Below are positions 7,016-52,597 of a DNA stretch of 64,000 nt, piece after piece (within the stretch, counting starts at the first letter, position 1; the number at the start of each line of letters is the position of its first letter). Source of the stretch: Sialis fuliginosa (lineage: Eukaryota; Arthropoda; Insecta; Megaloptera; Sialidae); assembly GCA_961205875.1 (NCBI GenBank), contig OY540810.1, positions 37,510,001 to 37,574,000 on the forward strand, read 5' to 3'. A program made the position numbers and the translations under genes. The notes under the pieces were generated by a model, which saw only the letters and a list, made by a program, of their open reading frames with translations, was not told the origin of the DNA and made no database searches.

Positions 7016-7030
7016 ATTTTAAAAGCTTCT

Positions 7031-7316
7031 CTTCAAATCAATCAATTTACCTATCAAAATATCAGAGCAATTTTTACATGCAGGTGAATGATGAAATTGT
7101 ACCACTAACTTCCTTATTTACCCACATTTAATCATGGACCTATGTAAATGTATCAAAATCCAAAAATAACCTTCACTTCAAATCAATTAATTTACCTATC
7201 AAAATATCAGAGCAATTTTTACATGCAGGTGAATGATGAAATTGTACCACTAACTTCCTTATTTACCCACATTAAACATGGACCTATGTAAATGTATCAA
7301 AATCCAAAAATAACCT
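7031..7316 (+). repeat. 145 bp tandem duplication (two copies)
   Basis: The unit starting CTTCAAATCAAT at 7031 repeats at 7176 with only a few substitutions and one small deletion. The near-identity implies a recent event. No reading frame persists through both units. Confidence 0.85.
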
Positions 7317-30404: not shown

Positions 30405-30897
30405 AAATATCTGCCTTGGGAACTACGGTACTTTCTTATACGTACTCCTAACAGTGAATAGTATACGTGATTCTTATTTTATTAAAACATTTCTGATAAA
30501 CTAACAAGATAGAATAAAATGAATAATATAGGTAATATTATTCTCTACATTATATAACAAATGATTTTTTTTAACGTAATAACTGAAAACGGATGTTTCC
30601 TCTTGTAAATTTTGAATTTTCGAATTATTTTTGAAATAAGAAAAAAATGTTTTAGATAAAAAATGTCGAGTATATTATTATCTATAATTTATTCCCCATA
30701 AATTTTTTTCCAACATTTATGATTTAGCCAGAAATAATTTTTTTATGTAATTATTTAGATTCACCTACACTGTTCACTCTCAGTATTACGTATAAGAAAG
30801 TCCCATGGTACCTATGGCAAACACACACACTGTTCAATCTCTGTAATACGTATAAGAAAGTCCCATGACACTCATGGCAGATATTTCTCCTCTGTTA
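30405..30897. mobile_element. family E inverted-repeat element
   Basis: Left AATATCTGCCTTGGGAAC with ACTTTCTTATACG is answered on the right by the inverted CGTATAAGAAAGTCCCATG and GGCAGATATTT. The right terminal unit is duplicated in tandem (two CGTATAAGAAAGTCCCATG copies). Most of it (30531-30920) recurs at 46639-47028. A reverse copy is at 40150-40480, and terminal scraps lie at 56250-56372 and 60220-60290. Non-coding. Confidence 0.7.
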
Positions 30898-32473
30898 TGA
30901 ACCATTTGAATTATAATAAAAATGTTTTTTTTTTCAAAAATTCGTTTTTACGAAAAAAATGAATAGAACATAAATTATAGATTTGTAAATATTGCTGCCC
31001 TTAACGCTGTAATTCACGTTAAGGTCTAAATGATTCTGTAGTAACGAAGAAGCTATAGGATTTTGTTTAGTTAAGAAAATAAAAAGTGTAAGCATAACTG
31101 CTTTTTTGGTATTGTGAATGATAAGTGTATAAAATTGTTTATGTCTAGTGTATTGATTGTGTATAATTAGTGTATTTATTGTTAAAGCTGTGATTTATGC
31201 TATCAATGTGTCAAATCTAAATAGAAAAATTGTAATTAAGTAAGAAATATATTTTTTATATCTTTGTATAAATGTACGTTTCGGTACCCTGAGGTCTGTT
31301 CCAACCTTCCAATTAAAGGAAAATTGAACCTACAGTTTAAAATAAATTGCAAATACGTTATAAATAAGGTCAATAACCTTAAAAAAAATAATAAAGAACA
31401 CACATTAATTCAAATATTAATTTTATTTGATAAATTTATATATAATATACAAAGTAAATTACAAAAATAACAAATAGATTTTTGTAAGTACAAATAATTC
31501 GGTTTAAAAACCCTGGAGATTTAAATTATAAAGAAATAGCAAACCTGCAACATAATTAGTAAGTACAATAACTTAAATAAGTACCCATAATTTAATAACA
31601 TTTTAACTACAAATTATATTAAAAACAAAGCACAATTCGTTCCAACCCAAAAATGTTTTCTACATATACATATATATTATATAATGTAGTGTCTATATAC
31701 CTATGTTTTAAAATGCCATTGTAGTTAAAATGCTTTTACAAAACAATTAATTTGAGTTTTAACGATGTACATATGTATAATGTATATACAGTGAGACAGA
31801 TTTATAAAATGAAACTTTTATCTTTTTGATTACTCAAGAGAATACATACATATTTAAAATTAAATTTATAGTTGTCAAATAATATATTTTAAGCTTAAAA
31901 ACAGACTACGCGTCGATATCCGTTTTATTAAAACTGTATAAACTCATAAAATGTGTAAAAATGATTTTTTTAATTATGATATTTGGGTGTGATAATCATT
32001 TTTCAACAAACGACGTATCTGTTGATATTAACAGACACCCATTGCAATGAAAATGCATGCTTACCAACGTTTTATTGTACATTGCAGGTAACAGGTACAC
32101 GTATTAAGCTTTTTAGGATTAACAATAATTAGGTAAACATTGAAATTATCATACACCCTCATTTAAAATAAAGCATATTAATTCACAATCGTATTCTAAT
32201 TTTCAGCTTTTTCAAAAATACTTATTTAATTTTTTTCAATTATGTAGAGAAATCCATGAAATAAATTAAATATTTTAAATGTAAATATATATACTAAAAT
32301 TCCCTACAAAAAAATGAATAATATTCTAAAATAAATAATGAATTATTTACAATTTAAAACATTCTATACTTATTATTTGTATACGAGTGAGTTTTTTTTA
32401 ACATGCATTTCTTCGGGGGCTCAACCGAGAAATGTGTGTAGAAGCATTTGTTACTCTAATATACTCTATATAA
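30898..32473. other. unassigned AT-rich DNA
   Basis: No gene supported. The frame at 31264-31470 lacks any domain signature. Confidence 0.5.
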
Positions 32474-39422: not shown

Positions 39423-39953
39423 CTAAAAGGGCTTATCCCGCTTCAATGATTCTGACCAATCGACTGCAAGGTCTAGAAGGACTGAAGCTGGGATAGGTCC
39501 GGTACCACTATTAAAAATCCTAGTCTTATCCCTCAAGATTTCTAAGCTTTCTGCTGCGTCCAATTGATTGTTATTACTGCATGCTTTAATTAGTTTTAAA
39601 TTACTTATGTCTGTAGTGTGATTTAATGTAGTCATATGATGAGCTACGCTGGATTTATCAACCCGGTTGTATTTTAGGTGAGCCATGTGCTCTTTAAATC
39701 TAATGTTTATTGATCTCCTAGTTTGTCCTATGTAACTTTTGTCGCAATTTAAGCAGTTAATTTTATAAATACCCGATTTTTCATTTACTTCTGTTTTATC
39801 TTTGGGGTTACCTAGGAGAGTTTTAATATTGTTATTATTAGAATAAACCAATTTATAAGTAAGTATAGTGAAGCCGATTTTTTTCGAAATCCGGATTTTG
39901 TTGGAATTATCCATTTTGACCTTCCCTGAATCTATTCTGACTATTTTCGCCAT
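39423..39953 (-). pseudogene. Penelope-like retroelement, C-terminal GIY-YIG endonuclease fragment
   Basis: Penelope-like elements encode one protein: a reverse transcriptase followed by a GIY-YIG endonuclease that nicks target DNA. This 176-codon frame holds only the endonuclease. GIY is at residues 61-63, a CX2C pair at C67 and C70 (a known Penelope trait), YIG at 74-76, then RFKEH (85-89), the AHH histidines (104-106) and a glutamate in AAESLEI (E135) suited to the metal site. The reverse transcriptase is missing. Residues 1-43 read like translated repeat DNA rather than protein, so the element is 5'-truncated or overwritten near residue 44, and the apparent start is not native. A hammerhead motif follows the stop. 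The endonuclease frame itself is unbroken. Confidence 0.85.
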
Positions 39954-40149
39954 GATGTCTGTGTGTGTCTGTCTGTCTGTTTGTAAGCGCGGTAACTCAA
40001 ATACGACAAATCGTAGAAGGGTTAAATTTTATATTTAAGATTAATTTTTGTCTGGGAAGAAAACGTCTTATTTTTGAAAACGATCTTTCAACCGGATACG
40101 TAGATTTTTGAATTTTTCGAATTACTCTGTGTGAAATAGAGAAAAATGG

Positions 40150-40480
40150 TCAAGTTAAAAGTTGTAGGTAATATCATTATCTATAATTTATGTTCTATTC
40201 ATTTTTTCGTAAAAACGAATTTAAAAAAAAATATTATAATTCAAATGGTTCATAGTTTTACAAGAGTAAACATCCGTTTTCAGTTATTACGTCAAAAAAA
40301 TCACTTGTTAAACATATAATGGAGAGAATAATATTACCTATATTATTCATTTTATTCTATCTTGTTAGTTTGTCAGAAATGTTTTAATAATTTAAGAATC
40401 ACTTATACTATTCACTGTTAGGATTACGTATAAGAAAGTCCCGTGGTTCCCAAGGCAGATATTTTTAAAACAAAATATAC
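40150..40480 (-). mobile_element. family E element, reverse partial copy
   Basis: Reverse complement of 30405-30980, finishing at CGTATAAGAAAGTCCCGTGG and GGCAGATATTT. The tandem-duplicated terminal unit of the 30405 copy is not present at this end. Confidence 0.68.
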
Positions 40481-42451: not shown

Positions 42452-42947
42452 GATTTGTTCTATTTTTCTGTCGTGGAAACAAAAGAGTTATTCCATATTA
42501 TGCTATCTATGATACTAAATCGGCTATAAAGAAAGGAACTAGAATATTTTTATTTCGAACGGTAGAGAATTTGTAGAGCAATAAAGATAAAGACTTAAAT
42601 GTTTCAAAACTTTAAACACTAGTGTTGAATTTTACGTATTAGATTTGAGAACCTATTTAATAAAATACAGTCATGTTACTGTTTATGAAAAGTTGAAATA
42701 TGTTTTATTTATTGTTTCTCGTCAACTTTGTTACATTTTCTTATTGAAAAATATTAATAAAATCTGCGCATTTTCTCATATTACAGATACTTTTATTTTG
42801 GTGTTACATTTTATTGTAAACTAACTTTATATAAATTTTATTAATTTACCAAGGTTATTAAACTATATAGTTGGCTATAGTTTATTTGAATGTGTCTTTT
42901 ACTCTACATTAAAACGATATGTCACTTGTAATATTTATTTTAAGTAC
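42452..42947. other. unassigned AT-rich DNA
   Basis: No feature recognised. Confidence 0.5.
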
Positions 42948-45488
42948 TAATAGTACAGGCAACGAAGGGATTTAAATAGAACAAATTCGGAGTGGAATGA
43001 AATTTGGTACCCATATAATATACATAATAGTACGTCTGTACACAAAAGTCCCCATCCATAGGCCTTGTGGAAAAAAAATTACAGCCGTTTGAAATTTAAT
43101 TTAGTTTTTATTGAATAACTTCAAGACAAATAAAGATACCGAGACGTGCCTTACATTAAAATTTTCAAAAATATTTGCTTTACAACTTTATTTCAAAATT
43201 TTCTCCAACGTATCTACATAGATTGCTGAAAAATCGCCGTGAATCTGAAAACTAAGTGCGTTTAATCAAAAAAATATGTTTAAATGGATTTTTAAGATCT
43301 TAAAACTGATAATCGAGACAAATGTCCTCTATAAAAGTTGTAGAGAATAAAATTTTACAATTTTTTTTGTAAGGTACAGCATTCGATGTGTAAATTTTTG
43401 TTAGATATTTCTATTTTAAAAAGTCAAAAAAACAAATTTTAATTTATAAAATCGTATAAATAGCATGCTATGAAAATTAGCATTACATAAGAAAATAACA
43501 TATTGGTATAGAAAATTAATGAAAATAAAAGTAATTAATAATTCCAATTCTTCAAATAAGACTTTTAATAACATATTATGATAACAATGTACTGAGGTGT
43601 AATTTGTAGCCCCTAGATTTAATATTATTGTATGTTTTAATAGTTTTAAATATAAATCTTCAAGACATTTTATTTTATCTTCAAAATACGGATATTAGAT
43701 AAGAACAAAATCAGAGTATCATAAAAATTTGCACATATGTAGTACTTATATTACATTAGACATGTGCAAAAGTCCTCATAAATTGGGGATATGGAAAAAA
43801 AATTATAGCTGTTTTAATTTTGATATGATAAATTACTATGTATCATATTTTCACTTATAATTAACCGTTTTTTACTTGGACATTTACATATTGTGTATCT
43901 CTGTATAGCATGTACATTATGAACAATTGAATTATGATCATTTTGATAGAAAATTTTGATTTTTAAATCAAACGGTTGTTAAGATATAAATTTATTTGTT
44001 TAATTCGATTTTATAAAAGTATATTTTGTTATGTATTTTATACCTGTTTACAGATACGCTTATAACATTTCTTTCGGGGTATCAATTAATGGGGATTTTC
44101 AAACAAGCGTAGTAGATACATTAGTGAGTGCATCTGAAAAAGTCCCCATACATTGAAGCCATAGGACAAAAGTTACAGCTGTTTTATAATTACGGTGTGG
44201 TAAATTGATATCTATGTAATGTGTTAAATTATGTAAATTATGTAATTATGGGTGATTCTCTCAAAAATTGAAACTGAATTTTATTCCTATTTGATCAATG
44301 TTATCGTTCTTATTGAAAGTAGTAACCATTTTTTTTAATTTCCCATCGGGACTCTCCATAAAATATTCTTAAGTTTAAAAAAAAATGCTTTTCATTATTA
44401 TTTATAGGTTTATACCCGTTTACAGATACGCTTATAACTTTTTTTTCGGGGTATCAATTAATGGGGATTTTCAAACAAGCGTAGTAGATATATTAGTAAG
44501 TGTATCTGAAAAAGTCCCCATACATTGAAGCAATAGGACAAAAGTTACAACTGTTATTATAAATACGATGTGGTATAAATTACGCTCTATGTTATGTATA
44601 TTTAAAAAAAAAACCTAAGAATATTTTATGGAGAGTCTCGATGGGAAATTAAAAAAAATGGTTACTACTTTCAATAAGAACGATAACATTGATCAAATAG
44701 GAATAAAATTCAGTTTCAATTTTTGAGAGAATCACCCATAATTACATAATTTACATAATTTAACAGATTACATAGATATCAATTTACCACACCGTAATTA
44801 TAAAACAGCTGTAACTTTTGTCCTATGGCTTCAATGTATGGGGACTTTTTCAGATGCACTCACTAATGTATCTACTACGCTTGTTTGAAAATTCCCATTA
44901 ATTGATACCCCGAAAGAAAAGTTATAAGCGTATCTGTAAACAGGTATAAAATACATAACAAAATATACTTTTATAAAATCGAATTAAACAAATAAATTTA
45001 TATCTTAACAACCGTTTGATTTAAAAATCAAAATTTTCTATCAAAATGATCATAATTCAATTGTTCATAATGTACATGCTATACAGAGATACACAATATG
45101 TAAATGTCCAAGTAAAAAACGGTTAATTATAAGTGAAAATATGATACATAGTAATTTATCATATCAAAATTAAAACAGCTATAATTTTTTTTCCATATCC
45201 CCAATTTATGAGGACTTTTGCACATGTCTAATGTAATATAAGTACTACATATGTGCAAATTTTTATGATACTCTGATTTTGTTCTTATCTAATATCCGTA
45301 TTTTGAAGATAAAATAAAATGTCTTGAAGATTTATATTTAAAACTATTAAAACATACAATAATATTAAATCTAGGGGCTACAAATTACACCTCAGTACAT
45401 TGTTATCATAATATGTTATTAAAAGTCTTATTTGAAGTATTGGAATTATTAATTACTTTTATTTTCATTAATTTTCTATACCAATATG

Positions 45489-46191
45489 CAGAGCCGGCCT
45501 TTGCGATTCTGGCGCCCCAGGCGAGATTTTTTTTTGACGCCCCCCCACCCCCCTCCACCGCCACAGTGACGATCATTAAAAATTATCCGCACAAAAAAAA
45601 AAAAAAGCGTGAGAAAATTATCTTGTTATTAATTCATTAGTGTAATATAATAATATAATATAACATATAATTGATAAATAATATATAATATAACTAAAAT
45701 TATATAAAAGATTTCTTCCTGGCTTTCATATCTGCAAAATTATCGATTGCTGTCTCAAAATTGAGGTTTGCTACAACCTTATTTTCAATTGAAAGAATAG
45801 CCAAATTATTCAACCTATCTTCTATCATAGCCGATTGCAAATAAGTTTTTATGAATTATTTTAATTTACTAAAACTTCTTTCACCACTAGCTACACTAAC
45901 CGGAATTGTTACAAGAATTAGCAAAGCCACCCACAGATTTGGCACTGTGCTTTTCAAGTTTTGTAAAAAAATGTTTAATAAATAATTTATTTTTGATATT
46001 AAGCATTTTATTAAGTAAAATGAATTAGGTATTTTGCAGAAAAAATCAAAACTATTATTCAAAAAATATATATAGCTTAAATTTGGAGCCCTAGAACAGA
46101 ACATAGAAAAAAAGTTTAAAATAATTGGCGCCCCCACGAAATTAGCGCCCCAGGCTGTCGCCTGGGTCGCCTGGCCGTTCGGCCGGCCCTG
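45489..46191. mobile_element. hAT relic A (left member of the composite)
   Basis: 703 bp from CAGAGCCGGCC to GGCCGGCCCTG with GGCGCCCCAGG-type subterminal text. It has a transposase remnant on the minus strand. It differs from relic B by a 4 bp stretch and two substitutions across about 690 bp, plus B's missing first 8 bp. Confidence 0.88.
45715..46137 (-). pseudogene. hAT transposase C-terminal dimerisation region, interrupted
   Basis: The minus-strand frame 46137-45856 ends with VPNLWVALLILVTIPVSVAS and then SGERSFSKLK, the signature of the hAT C-terminal dimerisation domain. A TAA stop follows directly, but the frame continues as FIKTYLQSAMIEDRLNNLAI and LSIEN, which is the expected remainder of the domain. 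One nonsense change therefore breaks it. The DDE catalytic domain and zinc finger are absent. The type is close to the ZMYM-like hAT proteins common in insects. In relic B a 4 bp deletion adds a frameshift (near 51110), so both copies are dead. Confidence 0.85.
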
Positions 46192-46638
46192 TTTTTTTTT
46201 TACTTATCCAAGTATTAAACCAATCTAGGTATAGATTCTAATAAATTGAAAATTTATCAATAATGATGAACGGATGGCATATTAAAAAAAATATATTGTT
46301 ACATTCATCAGAGTAACCGTTTTTTTAAATTAGAGCGAATTGTCGCTGAAGAAGTATCGACTATCGTCTAATTTTTATAATACGCGTGATTTTGCTAATT
46401 AACTTTTTGTGTAGTGTTTACCAGGTATGTACATTGTGATTCATATTATTTATTTGATTTTTTTGTTTCGGTTCTGATATTTATGTAATGGTTTTTATTT
46501 GTTAACGTATGTTTACATCATGCACTTGTCGAAAGAGCAATAAAACTAAGTTTTGTTAACGAATGTACATATCGTCATTGTTTATAGTTAATAATAATTA
46601 TATAATTTATAAAAATATAATTTTAATAATAAAAAAAA
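46192..46638. other. cargo of the composite: unassigned AT-rich DNA
   Basis: No gene. The stretch at 46330-46570 is slightly more complex but has no family signature. Its origin outside this locus is unknown. Confidence 0.4.
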
Positions 46639-47028
46639 GGTAATATTATTCTCTCCATTATATAACAAGTGATTTTTTTTAACGTAATAACTGAAATCAG
46701 ATGTTTACTCTTGTAAATTTTTGAATTAACGAATTATTTTTGAATTAAGAAAAAATGTTTTAGATAAAAAATGTCGAGTATGTTATTATCTATAATTTAT
46801 TCCCTATACATTTTTTTCCAACATTTATAATTTAGCCAGAAAGAAATTTTTTATGTAATTATTTAGATTCACCTACACTGTTCACTATCAGTATTACGTA
46901 TAAGAAAGTCCCATGGTACCTATGGCAAACAAGCACACTGTTTAATCTCTGTACTACGTATAAGAAAGTCCCATGACACTCATGGCAGATATTTCTCCTC
47001 TGTTATGAACCATTTGAATTATAATAAA
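46639..47028. mobile_element. cargo of the composite: family E partial copy
   Basis: Matches 30531-30920 almost base for base, including the tandem-duplicated terminal unit, and then diverges at 47029. The left half of the element is missing. Confidence 0.78.
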
Positions 47029-47190
47029 ATTGCATGACGTTAACATTTGTTTACAAAGTCAAAAAAATGAAATAAACTTTTATTTTCAAAAAAAGATTTT
47101 TTTTACTATTTTTCCCTTAAATCTAGCCTACTTCTGCTTCAAAAAATTAATATTTCGTTAAAATAAAAAAAATCATGCAATTAAGGGTTA
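47029..47190. repeat. left frame of the satellite array
   Basis: Begins TTGCATGACGTTAAC and closes with ATGCAATTAAGGGTTA at 47175-47190. That sequence is repeated inverted (TAACCCTTAATTGCAT, 50501-50516) right after the array. The following CTTGTTAACATTCGTGAACA on the right resembles GACGTTAACATTTGTTTACA on the left in direct orientation. Confidence 0.6.
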
Positions 47191-50100
47191 AAGATAATAG
47201 TGTAAGCTACATTTTAAAAAAAAACTGGAGTCTCCTCGATCGCGCCAAGTTGAGATATTAACTATTCAATTTACTTCTTTGTTAGCGTATGAGTTTTAAT
47301 TTGTTTTTTTAGTTTTAACTTGTTTTTAAAAAGGGAAGGAGCACGCGAAGGTCTTTAAGTGCGTGATGCTCTTAAAGATAATAGTGTAAGCTACATTTTA
47401 AAAAAAAACTGGAGTCTCTTCGATCGCGCCAAGCTGAGATATTAACTATTCAATTTACTTCTTTGTTAGCGTATGAGTTTTAATTTGTTTTTTTAGTTTT
47501 AACTTGTTTTTAAAAAGGGAAGGAGCACGCGAAGGTCTTTAAGTGCGTGATGCTCTTAAAGATAATAGTGTAAGCTACATTTAAAAAAAAAACTGGAGTC
47601 TCTTCGATCGCGCCAAGCTGAGATATTAACTATTCAATTTACTTCTTTGTTAGCGTATGAGTTTTAATTTGTTTTTTTAGTTTTAACTTGTTTTTAAAAA
47701 GGGAAGGAGCACGCGAAGGTCTTTAAGTGCGTGATGCTCTTAAAGATAATAGTGTAAGCTACATTTTAAAAAAAAACTGGAGTCTCTTCGATCGCGCCAA
47801 GCTGAGATATTAACTATTCAATTTACTTCTTTGTTAGCGTATGAGTTTTAATTTGTTTTTTTAGTTTTAACTTGTTTTTAAAAAGGGAAGGAGCACGCGA
47901 AGGTCTTTAAGTGCGTGATGCTCTTAAAGATAATAGTGTAAGCTACATTTAAAAAAAAAACTGGAGTCTCTTCGATCGCGCCAAGCTGAGATATTAACTA
48001 TTCAATTTACTTCTTTGTTAGCGTATGAGTTTTAATTTGTTTTTTTAGTTTTAACTTGTTTTTAAAAAGGGAAGGAGCACGCGAAGGTCTTTAAGTGCGT
48101 GATGCTCTTAAAGATAATAGTGTAAGCTACATTTTAAAAAAAAACTGGAGTCTCTTCGATCGCGCCAAGCTGAGATATTAACTATTCAATTTACTTCTTT
48201 GTTAGCGTATGAGTTTTAATTTGTTTTTTTAGTTTTAACTTGTTTTTAAAAAGGGAAGGAGCACGCGAAGGTCTTTAAGTGCGTGATGCTCTTAAAGATA
48301 ATAGTGTAAGCTACATTTTAAAAAAAAACTGGAGTCTCTTCGATCGCGCCAAGCTGAGATATTAACTATTCAATTTACTTCTTTGTTAGCGTATGAGTTT
48401 TAATTTGTTTTTTTAGTTTTAACTTGTTTTTAAAAAGGGAAGGAGCACGCGAAGGTCTTTAAGTGCGTGATGCTCTTAAAGATAATAGTGTAAGCTACAT
48501 TTAAAAAAAAAAACTGGAGTCTCTTCGATCGCGCCAAGCTGAGATATTAACTATTCAATTTACTTCTTTGTTAGCGTATGAGTTTTAATTTGTTTTTTTA
48601 GTTTTAACTTGTTTTTAAAAAGGGAAGGAGCACGCGAAGGTCTTTAAGTGCGTGATGCTCTTAAAGATAATAGTGTAAGCTACATTTAAAAAAAAAACTG
48701 GAGTCTCTTCGATCGCGCCAAGCTGAGATATTAACTATTCAATTTACTTCTTTGTTAGCGTATGAGTTTTAATTTGTTTTTTTAGTTTTAACTTGTTTTT
48801 AAAACGGGGAGGGGCACGCGAAGGTCTTTAAGTGCGTGATGCTCTTAAAGATAATAGTGTAAGCTACATTTTAAAAAAAAACTGGAGTCTCTTCGATCGC
48901 ACCAAGCTGAGATATTAACTATTCAATTTACTTCTTTGTTAGCGTATGAGTTTTAATTTGTTTTTTTAGTTTTAACTTGTTTTTAAAAAGGGAAGGAGCA
49001 CGCGAAGGTCTTTAAGTGCGTGATGCTCTTAAAGATAATAGTGTAAGCTACATTTTAAAAAAAAACTGGAGTCTCTTCGATCGCGCCAAGCTGAGATATT
49101 AACTATTCAATTTACTTCTTTGTTAGCGTATGAGTTTTAATTTGTTTTTTTAGTTTTAACTTGTTTTTAAAACGGGGAGGGGCACGCGAAGGTCTTTAAG
49201 TGCGTGATGCTCTTAAAGATAATAGTGTAAGCTACATTTTAAAAAAAAACTGGAGTCTCCTCGATCGCGCCAAGTTGAGATATTAACTATTCAATTTACT
49301 TCTTTGTTAGCGTATGAGTTTTAATTTGTTTTTTTAGTTTTAACTTGTTTTTAAAAAGGGAAGGAGCACGCGAAGGTCTTTAAGTGCGTGATGCTCTTAA
49401 AGATAATAGTGTAAGCTACATTTTAAAAAAAAACTGGAGTCTCTTCGATCGCGCCAAGCTGAGATATTAACTATTCAATTTACTTCTTTGTTAGCGTATG
49501 AGTTTTAATTTGTTTTTTTAGTTTTAACTTGTTTTTAAAAAGGGAAGGAGCACGCGAAGGTCTTTAAGTGCGTGATGCTCTTAAAGATAATAGTGTAAGC
49601 TACATTTAAAAAAAAAACTGGAGTCTCTTCGATCGCGCCAAGCTGAGATATTAACTATTCAATTTACTTCTTTGTTAGCGTATGAGTTTTAATTTGTTTT
49701 TTTAGTTTTAACTTGTTTTTAAAAAGGGAAGGAGCACGCGAAGGTCTTTAAGTGCGTGATGCTCTTAAAGATAATAGTGTAAGCTACATTTTAAAAAAAA
49801 ACTGGAGTCTCTTCGATCGCGCCAAGCTGAGATATTAACTATTCAATTTACTTCTTTGTTAGCGTATGAGTTTTAATTTGTTTTTTTAGTTTTAACTTGT
49901 TTTTAAAAAGGGAAGGAGCACGCGAAGGTCTTTAAGTGCGTGGTGCTCTTAAAGATAATAGTGTAAGCTACATTTTAAAAAAAACTGGAGTTTCTTCGAT
50001 CGCGCCAAGCTGAGATATTAACTATTCAATTTACTTCTTTGTTAGCGTATGAGTTTTAATTTGTTTTTTTAGTTTTAACTTGTTTTTAAAAAGGGAAGGA

Positions 50101-50500
50101 GCACGCGAAGGTCTTTAAGTGCGTGATGCTCTTAAAGATAATAGTGTAAGCTACATTTAAAAAAAAAACTGGAGTCTCTTCGATCGCGCCAAGCTGAGAT
50201 ATTAACTATTCAATTTACTTCTTTGTTAGCGTATGAGTTTTAATTTGTTTTTTTAGTTTTAACTTGTTTTTAAAAAGGGAAGGAGCACGCGAAGGTCTTT
50301 AAGTGCGTGATGCTCTTAAAGATAATAGTGTAAGCTACATTTTAAAAAAAAACTGGAGTCTCCTCGATCGCACCAAGCTGAGATATTAACTATTCAATTT
50401 ACTTCTTTGTTAGCGTATGAGTTTTTATTTGTTTTTTTAGTTTTAACTTGTTTTTAAAAAGGGAAGTAGCACGCGAAGGTCTTTAAGTGCGTGATGCTCT
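47191..50500 (+). repeat. 184 bp satellite array, 18 tandem copies
   Basis: GCACGCGAAGG recurs at 47341, 47525, 47709, 47893, 48077, 48261, 48445, 48630, 48814, 48998, 49182, 49366, 49550, 49734, 49918, 50101, 50285 and 50469, a spacing of 184 bp with one 185 and one 183. Monomers are nearly identical. Variation is mostly in a T/A homopolymer. Copies 9 and 11 share CGGGGAGGGGCACG, and copies 1 and 12 share CTCCTCGATCG with CCAAGTTGAG, pointing to block duplication. No open frame runs through a monomer. Each has an imperfect GAGCACGCG/GCGTGATGCTC hairpin. Confidence 0.97.
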
Positions 50501-50580
50501 TAACCCTTAATTGCATCTTGTTAACATTCGTGAACAATGTTTTCAGAGGTATTATTAGCAAAAATGTACAATATTTTTTA

Positions 50581-51271
50581 GCCTTTGCGATTCTGGCGCC
50601 CCAGGCGAGATTTTTTTTTGACGCCCCCCCACCCCCCTCCACCGCCACAGTGACGATCATTAAAAATTATCCGCACAAAAAAAAAAAAAAGCGTGAGAAA
50701 ATTATCTTGTTATTAATTCATTAGTGTAATATAATAATATAATATAACATATAATTGATAAATAATATATAATATAACTAAAATTATATAAAAGATTTCT
50801 TCCTGGCTTTCATATCTGCAAAATTATCGATTGCTGTCTCAAAATTGAGGTTTGCTACAACCTTATTTTCAATTGAAAGAATAGCCAAATTATTCAACCT
50901 ATCTTCTATCATAGCCGATTGCAAATAAGTTTTTATGAATTATTTTAATTTACTAAAACTTCTTTCACCACTAGCTACACTAACCGGAATTGTTACAAGA
51001 ATTAGCAAAGCCACCCACAGATTTGGCACTGTGCTTTTCAAGTTTTGTAAAAAAATGTTTAATAAATAATTTATTTTTGATATTAAGCATTTTATTAAGT
51101 AAAATGAATTATTTTGCAGAAAAAATCAAAACCATTATTCAAAAAATATATATAGCTTAAATTTGGCGCCCTAGAACAGAACATAGAAAAAAAGTTTAAA
51201 ATAATTGGCGCCCCCACGAAATTAGCGCCCCAGGCTGTCGCCTGGGTCGCCTGGCCGTTCGGCCGGCCCTG
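50581..51271. mobile_element. hAT relic B (right member of the composite), lacking its first 8 bp
   Basis: Same orientation as relic A and almost identical. It starts at GCCTTTGCG, lacking CAGAGCCG, so its inner tip cannot be cut by transposase. Its outer tip is intact and bears the CCAATATG duplication. The transposase remnant on the minus strand (about 50800-51230) carries an extra frameshift. Confidence 0.88.
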
Positions 51272-51840
51272 CCAATATGTTATTTTCTTATGTAATGCTA
51301 ATTTTCATAGCATGCTATTTATACGATTTTATAAATTAAAATTTGTTTTTTTGACTTTTTAAAATAGAAATATCTAACAAAAATTTACACATCGAATGCT
51401 GTACCTTACAAAAAAAATTGTAAAATTTTATTCTCTACAACTTTTATAGAGGACATTTGTCTCGATTATCAGTTTTAAGATCTTAAAAATCCATTTAAAC
51501 ATATTTTTTTGATTAAACGCACTTAGTTTTCAGATTCACGGCGATTTTTCAGCAATCTATGTAGATACGTTGGAGAAAATTTTGAAATAAAGTTGTAAAG
51601 CAAATATTTTTGAAAATTTTAATGTAAGGCACGTCTCGGTATCTTTATTTGTCTTGAAGTTATTCAATAAAAACTAAATTAAATTTCAAACGGCTGTAAT
51701 TTTTTTTCCACAAGGCCTATGGATGGGGACTTTTGTGTACAGACGTACTATTATGTATATTATATGGGTACCAAATTTCATTCCACTCCGAATTTGTTCC
51801 AAAAACAGGGCAATTTTTCCCTTCATTGCCTGTACTATAA

Positions 51841-52597
51841 ATACTAGTAATATTTATAAAGTATTTTATTTCAACATTTATGTAGGCCATGAAAAACAAA
51901 AATCACAATAACAACAATCAAAATAACGAATGAATATATGAAAACAATAAACTATTATAAAAAAATGTTCTTTACTTTTTTTTGATAGAAAGTATGACAA
52001 GTTACATATCGTTGTTATCGAGCAAAAAACACGTTCAAATATGCTATAACCAACATAGTGGTCCATAAGAGAAACTAAAGTTAGGGCTTATAACTCGGAA
52101 ACTAAAAGTGATATAAAAATTCTAAATACAACAATCAATTTTACTTTTAAAAACCGCAAACAAAAAGTACCTATCATTGAGTAAAATTTTATAACCATTA
52201 AAAGAAGTTCCGAATTTTCCGATTTTTGGGTATACCGCCTAAACCATACTCATCTCTTCCTTACAAATAATTCATCTCATTTAACCGAATCTGTATCTCT
52301 TACCGATTAGAAAATCCCCATGCATCTCACCTTTATCTTGGACAGCCTGTATAAATTATAGATACTAAAAAAATTAAAACTGGAAACTCTTATGATTCTC
52401 CGGGAAAGACACTTTCCTGTTCCCGATTCTTGAATATGCAAAACTTCCGGGAATTCCGCGAAACAGAATATAAAAAAAACACATAATTACTATGTGTCTT
52501 CAAAATTAATTGCTGAATATAATCATAATAAATTACTATCAAATTATTTACCATAAAATATCTACTGTACATACATTGGTTCAAGTAAGTAGGTATG
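51841..52597. other. unassigned DNA with an orphan TACAGG element end
   Basis: AT-rich. At 52336-52352 the text TTATCTTGGACAGCCTGTA is the inverted form of a TACAGG-type tip like those at 17481 and 19435, suggesting a truncated foldback whose left end is lost. Confidence 0.45.

Follow-up and report, generated by a model that had tools for sequence, protein, structure and literature searches.

Can a eukaryotic hAT transposase take two hAT elements, together with the DNA that lies between them, and move the whole as a single block? In bacterial composite transposons a pair of similar elements carries the passenger DNA between them, and the target duplication is found at the outer ends only. A locus with this appearance is present in a 64,000-nucleotide stretch of the Sialis fuliginosa genome (contig OY540810.1, positions 37,510,001 to 37,574,000; the whole stretch is called the window here), where two hAT relics, A and B, enclose a satellite-bearing cargo. 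We find that the locus is very probably a member of a dispersed family of composite hATs that are non-autonomous and end in long direct repeats. The family would have spread as a block and would go back to one hAT insertion into a second element, P. The composite consists of hAT A (703 bp), a 3′ part of P (cL), a variable array of a 184-bp satellite, a 5′ part of P (cR) and hAT B (~691 bp).

Structure of the window locus

The features of the locus, in window coordinates, are as follows.

42943–44376, minus strand: palindromic host repeat, empty arm; locus L034 on contig C6 has the same host and the same insertion
43499–43506, minus strand: empty target site, one CCAATATG, within the uninterrupted inverted arm
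44611–45488, plus strand: host repeat, filled arm, inner part; resumes at 51272–51845
45481–45488, no strand: target-site duplication CCAATATG, left copy, 8 bp; single copy in the empty arm
45489–46191, plus strand: hAT end A, left, 703 bp, two intact tips; begins CAGAGCCGGCC, ends GGCCGGCCCTG
46192–47187, plus strand: cL, 3′ part of P, ends ATGCAATTAAGGG; contiguous with 50504–50579 in the hAT-free loci L090 and L091
47188–50503, plus strand: satellite array, 184-bp unit, 18 units; the same TTAA of the unit bounds both ends
50504–50579, plus strand: cR, 5′ part of P, begins CCCTTAATTGCAT after TTAA
50580, plus strand: single base left of B, fits a remnant of an older TTTTTTAC duplication
50581–51271, plus strand: hAT end B, right, 691 bp, inner 8-bp tip lost; A-type bases here (probable gene conversion, see below)
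51272–51279, no strand: target-site duplication CCAATATG, right copy

The first-pass annotation, which was made from the window alone, had placed an octamer at the outer ends of A and B only, and CCAATATG does lie at 45481–45488 and 51272–51279. A chance 8/8 match has a probability of 1.3e-4 (random 8-mers drawn from the window), and the pair around the block is not a chance match. The same annotation gave A and B one orientation, about three differences and a B lacking its inner 8 bp; they are indeed in the same orientation, the first base of B is position 9 of A, and the differences beyond the lost tip amount to two substitutions and one 4-bp indel.

The host sequence supplies the empty site. 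The window contains an inverted repeat with arms 43499–44376/44611–45488 and 42979–43506/51272–51799. Read on the minus strand, the left arm runs from the left flank straight into the right flank through a single CCAATATG with no insert, and we therefore take the palindromic repeat to be the target, with the insert in its right arm only. The inner 878 bp of the two arms differ by 6 substitutions, the next 528 bp by none. The host palindrome as a whole (42943–51845) has near-identical arms of ~1.4 kb and a spacer of 234 bp; it ends in ...GCCTGTACTA, with a 3-bp TAA as a candidate duplication.

Both the 8-bp duplication and short inverted tips speak for membership of hAT. The tips CAGAGCCGGCC and GGCCGGCCCTG of A are inverted and complementary at 10/11 bp, which we take to be the hAT tip type, and A contains on its minus strand a dead, C-terminal (dimerisation) transposase remnant that matches PF05699 (E 1e-10). 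All of the 150 remnants scored (the best 150 of 582 candidates) have stops and, given also that the remnant in A is dead, the family looks non-autonomous. One scan of the hAT end against viral contigs gave 0 matches, as did an Rfam scan.

The block at other loci

The assembly comprises 392 Mb in 20 contigs, with the window at C2:37510001-37574000; junction counts given below are of exact patterns in this one assembly. Among 671 candidate relatives of A the best 40 were scored, and these 40 further rows are 98–99% identical to A (one is the window's own B and one is partial). The cargo start seen in the window stands to the right of A in 18 of 20 other copies, with differing left flanks. In 10-kb stretches fetched around those 20 loci, the order A, cL, satellite array, cR, B is found at 16, although B is interrupted in L034 and ends at position 675 in L040, and cL is partial in L045. 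The remaining four comprise an A that stands alone (L044), a rearranged locus (L032) and two arrays that extend beyond the stretch (L037 and L039).

Two sets of 20 loci were used for a census of the outer octamers, the first picked for closeness to the A of the window and the second from listed pairs of remnant and junction. In each set 15 of the 20 loci were resolved as composites, 14 with an 8/8 and one with a 7/8 duplication. Taken together, 30 of the 40 other loci are resolved composites; the duplication is perfect over 8 bp in 28 of these and matches at 7/8 in the remaining 2. No two of the 28 perfect octamers are the same, and 27 of them are unlike that of the window. The exception, L034 on C6, has the octamer of the window and its flanks as well, and so represents the same insertion, carried to C6 within a second copy of the host repeat. 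Outer duplications at 8/8 are also found around a multimer (L089) and a deleted copy (L114).

Genome-wide, the A/cargo junction (46191/46192) recurs exactly at 65 places and the cR/B junction (50580/50581) at 105, with 0 for the reversed-pattern control. Forty-six of 100 listed cR/B junctions have an exact A/cargo junction no more than 30 kb upstream (1.4 to 12.0 kb), and a further 5 have a hAT remnant upstream. Conversely, 19 of the 65 A/cargo junctions have no exact B junction downstream among the matches listed, in which B extends to C13. The sequence comparison supports mobility of A, cargo and B as a unit. The first-pass annotation had proposed just such carriage of the cargo by the outer hAT tips and had pointed to recurrence of A-cargo-B and of the two junctions; the recurrence at many loci with different octamers upholds it.

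The cargo and the origin of the composite

The cargo had been described as satellite plus a dispersed repeat, E, and both are there, the array as 18 units and E at 46638–47032, inside cL. E has a 60-bp internal tandem duplication (CACTGTTC...CGTATAAGAAAGTCCCATG); it occurs outside the composite too, at 30530–30924 and in parts near 40300, 56300 and 60300. The array in the window is a whole number of units and, of the 7 TTAA sites in the unit, the two cargo ends join it at the same one. When the cargo is read in permuted order, 50500–50579 followed by 46192–47191, it forms one element, P, of the structure TTAA-CCCTTAATTGCAT...ATGCAATTAAGGG-TTAA. A motif GTTAAC...TGT..ACA (no more than 1 mismatch) is found at 50520, 46501, 46555 and 47039 and at no other place in the window; a stricter form, allowing 2 mismatches, gives one more place, 3583. 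P has TTAA and CCC...GGG ends in the window. Elsewhere the ends show one change in the 3′ end (L090), TTTA on one side (L091) or the 5′ end only, at TTAA (L092). The translations of P (~1.07 kb) contain no long open frame, and the name piggyBac-like that we give it is a putative one resting on the ends and the target.

The permuted reading predicts a direct, hAT-free join of cR to cL. A pattern search located this join at three places, all AATATTTTTTACTTATCC (control 0). L090 and L091 are complete copies of P with satellite on both sides; the third, L092, consists of a 5′ end of P at another place. Of satellite units, the L090 island has about one to the left of P and about fourteen to the right, and the L091 island about ten to the left and two to the right; no hAT was seen in either island within the stretches fetched.

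The inner flank of B is TTTTTTA, after which C plus CAGAGCCG are lost, and the inner flank of A is T9 to T12 followed by ACTTATCC. In the simplest history these flanks lay on either side of a single hAT that had inserted into P with the duplication TTTTTTAC. The earlier statement that the inner ends have no duplication is refined accordingly: set against the hAT-free element, the inner ends fit the remains of the older TTTTTTAC duplication. Since the inner flanks join into hAT-free P, the composite would be a circular permutation of satellite-P::hAT. Of the earlier likening to a composite transposon, the movement as a block stands but not the picture of a chance pair of hATs, both ends apparently coming from one insertion in P within a satellite array.

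We propose that a hAT inserted into a P lying in a satellite array, giving the TTTTTTAC duplication, and that an exchange through the satellite then set a P::hAT copy at each end. This could have come about by unequal crossing over, through a circle, or by re-replication after alternative transposition and fusion in the satellite; the three are indistinguishable here. The third route has a detailed counterpart in the maize Composite Insertion, in which alternative transposition onto unreplicated DNA would lead to re-replication of the hAT and its flanks, closure by homologous recombination in the satellite, and later spread of the block. Such an origin is possible, although we consider it distinctly less probable than not. 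One event would cover both the inner flanks, as sides of one hAT, and the in-phase satellite, and the maize passages available to us include precedents for closure by repeat recombination (PMC4270019) and for macrotransposon behaviour (PMC9910405). Against this, it requires reversed or sister-chromatid ends, no scar here sets it apart from unequal exchange or a circle, and the one-P, hAT-free islands L090 and L091 suggest other routes by which the satellite-P unit spreads.

It is very unlikely that two independent hAT insertions happened to bracket ordinary DNA and then moved jointly. The hAT family is abundant and its members similar (the 671 candidates mentioned above), and outer-tip use is supported; yet the inner flanks join into hAT-free P at 3 places, and the same P site at both ends would be unexpected of independent insertions. 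The hAT-free copies of P contradict a chance composite, unless they are secondary products.

A and B as two inherited lineages

The inner tip of B is gone in 16 of the 16 B copies read, with 8 bp missing in 15 and 7 bp in L029, where B starts at position 8 of A. The sequence at the cR/B junction is TTTTTTAGCC in 99 of the 100 cases listed and TTTTTTTGGCC in one, L029, under a pattern that would not match an intact inner tip. The mean divergence among 37 aligned ends is 0.0036 between A copies and 0.0056 between B copies, compared with 0.0099 for A against B at the same locus and 0.0101 for A against B at different loci. In a tree of the ends, which leaves the majority of inner branches open and whose bootstrap had not converged, the 15 other B copies fall on one side of a branch with support 97/93, and all A copies together with both ends of the window fall on the opposite side. 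These divergences and this branch separate A from B and lead us to conclude that the two were distinct before the family spread and have been inherited together.

The window is the odd one out. Of four diagnostic columns, two have B-specific bases in all 15 other B copies and two have them in 14 of the 15, whereas the B of the window has A bases at all four and, in its left part, the homopolymer lengths of A. It is only in the window copy that A and B are so nearly identical. Because L034, the same insertion, retains a B-type B, it is most likely that A converted the window B once a copy of the host repeat had been made; this conversion did not restore the lost tip.

We had considered the likeness of A and B as a sign of one duplication and dropped it once the comparison across the genome had traced it to local gene conversion. 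With it goes what favoured the alternative raised in the first-pass annotation, of a single hAT at CCAATATG later duplicated in place around new DNA, namely the near-identity of A and B in the window. The other arm of the host is empty and the block is present at many unrelated sites with other octamers, which leaves this alternative next to no credence. Copying through RNA in the manner of an LTR (long terminal repeat) retrotransposon would account for an internal region enclosed by direct repeats of ~700 bp at the ends, but the repeats of one copy would then be expected to be identical at insertion, and A and B are as far apart within a locus as between loci; the ends CAGAG...CCCTG, the 8-bp duplications and the hAT transposase remnant inside the ends likewise make it scarcely tenable. 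An assembly artefact, for all the difficulty that satellite arrays and palindromes present to assembly, can be dismissed with near certainty in view of the 65 and 105 exact junctions and of the unrelated flanks and matching octamers wherever these were read.

Variation, multimers and probable excision of A

The arrays vary from 7 to at least 37 units, and satellite units diverge by 1.20% within arrays and 1.26% between them. One copy, L089 (C12:14904300-14912700), is a multimer with the order A-satellite-B-cL-satellite-B-cL-satellite-B and an outer duplication, CCTACAAT, matching at 8/8. Three of its repeats have truncated left ends; of cL, the first unit retains ~34 bp and two units retain the first 336 bp. 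The two inner repeats combine the truncated left end of B with the right neighbour of A, as expected from unequal crossing over. A pair of cR/B junctions on one strand, C5:15847157 and C5:15854686, separated by 7.5 kb, is perhaps another multimer.

Loss of A takes more than one form. In L114, which has ACGAACTT at either end, 50 bp of A are retained and fused to cL. This fusion is found at a single exact place, and the idea that the A-less loci represent one mobile deletion derivative was dropped. At three loci (3/3 of those examined that have an intact cargo start but lack A) the departure of A seems to have left a scar: CAAGAAG-AA-T10 on the left against CAAGAAGT on the right, GTCTGAT-T9 against GTCTGATC, and ACTCCA-T8 against ACTCCACA. 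We read these scars as probable hAT excision footprints of A alone, their form being, we presume, of the hAT footprint type. On the reverse strand there are 39 cargo starts (T run of at least 7) against 35 A/cargo junctions, so that excision leaving an intact cargo start explains only a few of the A-less loci; it was rejected as the cause of most of them.

Older relatives of the hAT ends exist. Among 100 listed right tips not before T (C1–C6), 32 end exact B copies, 9 adjoin a remnant and 59 are unassigned. Nineteen of the 59 were read over ~420 bp: nine are without A 381–552 and are 86–95% identical, two are continuous at 93–95% and four are continuous at ~98%.

Two individual loci carry further changes. 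In L032 (C10:16890300-16900200) A is followed by 280 bp of the right flank of the window's host and then by A 562–703 and cargo; it looks as if repair had copied a locus like that of the window together with its flank. In L034, B is interrupted at A position ~160 by a foreign insert of ~890 bp that includes a CTGT run.

A model for the spread of the composite

Following the exchange through the satellite, the outer tips would have been used as a unit. A hAT transposase supplied from elsewhere, whose use of the outer tips we infer from the duplications, would join A by its left tip to B by its right tip and move all that lies between them. Judged by sequence, the loss of the inner tip of B leaves three tips usable. 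Use of A left and B right would move the block, and use of A left and A right would move A alone; each of these two kinds of product has been read. The window locus would then be a single insertion into one palindrome arm, in which A later converted B. Going further, we lean towards the view, with rather more for it than against, that the family is a self-sustaining eukaryotic hAT composite lineage from one circularly permuted satellite-P::hAT founder, in which loss of the B tip biases the enzyme outwards, spreading the block and seeding the chromosomes with short satellite arrays, whilst the inner tip of A is the point of decay.

Several observations weigh against the main account, of a composite that moves as a block. 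Ten of the 40 census loci are without a composite duplication. In the first set these are L032 (4/8, rearranged), L037 and L039 (array too long), L040 (B truncated) and L044, where A stands alone and no duplication is seen (2/8); at the five in the second set the tip is absent from the guessed coordinate. Among the matches listed, 49 of the 100 cR/B junctions have neither an A junction nor a hAT remnant within 30 kb upstream, and four of these were read (one internal deletion and three A excisions), leaving 45 unexplained. The junction pattern, with its 2–8 free bases, is unable to count B copies in which the inner tip is intact. As for the older duplication, TTTTTTAC is a fit that needs growth of a T run from 6 to ~10 and one base lost with the tip of B. 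Finally, neither an autonomous element nor an intact transposase is among the best 150 of 582 remnants, in which no search was aimed at an intact copy.

Elsewhere in the window, a 201-codon open frame on the minus strand (39423–40028) has a weak match to GIY-YIG (E 0.0031, below the Pfam cut-off) and resembles what we take to be a Penelope-type endonuclease fragment, and a 145-bp unit is present in two tandem copies of 97% identity at 7026–7316.

Comparison with known systems

Composite transposons are textbook bacterial biology. The present composite differs from these in its hAT ends, its eukaryotic genome, a passenger of satellite rather than genes, and two dead ends that require an outside enzyme. 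In the sources as far as they were available, the closest eukaryotic cases are the Ac macrotransposons and composite insertions of maize and one Kolobok lineage. What the present genome adds is one natural hAT family for which the hAT-free donor element, multimers, decay products and an empty target site are found together, making testable both the choice of cut-and-paste enzymes between inner and outer tips and the dispersal of satellite arrays. A search of literature listings, with subscription papers mostly outside its scope, found no hAT lineage of such build with terminal direct repeats or satellite.

The Tetris element is described, in the part of the paper available (PMC4079207), as a foldback DNA transposon with internal tandem repeats in variable number inside inverted ends. 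On that description the two are alike as DNA transposons that carry and disperse satellite-like repeats, and unlike in that ours has composite hAT ends and no foldback.

KolobokP is closer in architecture. The accessible text (PMC9587614) presents it as composite-like, with long terminal direct repeats that have short inverted tips of their own and a transposase and an endonuclease inside; it also reports solo repeats, multimers that share repeats and signs that the terminal repeat excises alone, and its authors call it unlike any other DNA transposon. As far as that text goes, the Sialis composite shares the long direct terminal repeats with short inverted tips (the inner tip of B being lost), the solo repeats, the multimers and the excision of a repeat. 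It differs in its hAT ends, in having no coding capacity that we could see, in a cargo of satellite and P halves and in the loss of one inner tip. Membership of KolobokP itself was considered and set aside on the 8-bp duplications found here, as opposed to the shorter, TTAA-type duplication of Kolobok, a Kolobok transposase not having been searched for.

The maize Ac/Ds system is closest in mechanism. Passages from three papers (PMC4270019, PMC9910405, PMC3260210) describe how the hAT ends of two elements mobilise the intervening DNA with an 8-bp outer duplication, in alleles that were followed genetically, and one of them cites Ac macrotransposons in several maize lines. A composite insertion closed through recombination of flanking repeats (PMC4270019), and composite insertions act as macrotransposons (PMC9910405), according to the same passages. 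Compared with what these excerpts contain, the Sialis element resembles the maize macrotransposon or Composite Insertion in that two elements and the DNA between them move together with a duplication outside only, in that the cargo is flanking DNA of the donor, and in that both inner flanks go back to a single donor element, one to each of its sides. It is unlike the maize cases described there in being one block, with fixed identities of A and B and with 105 exact right-hand junctions in one genome.

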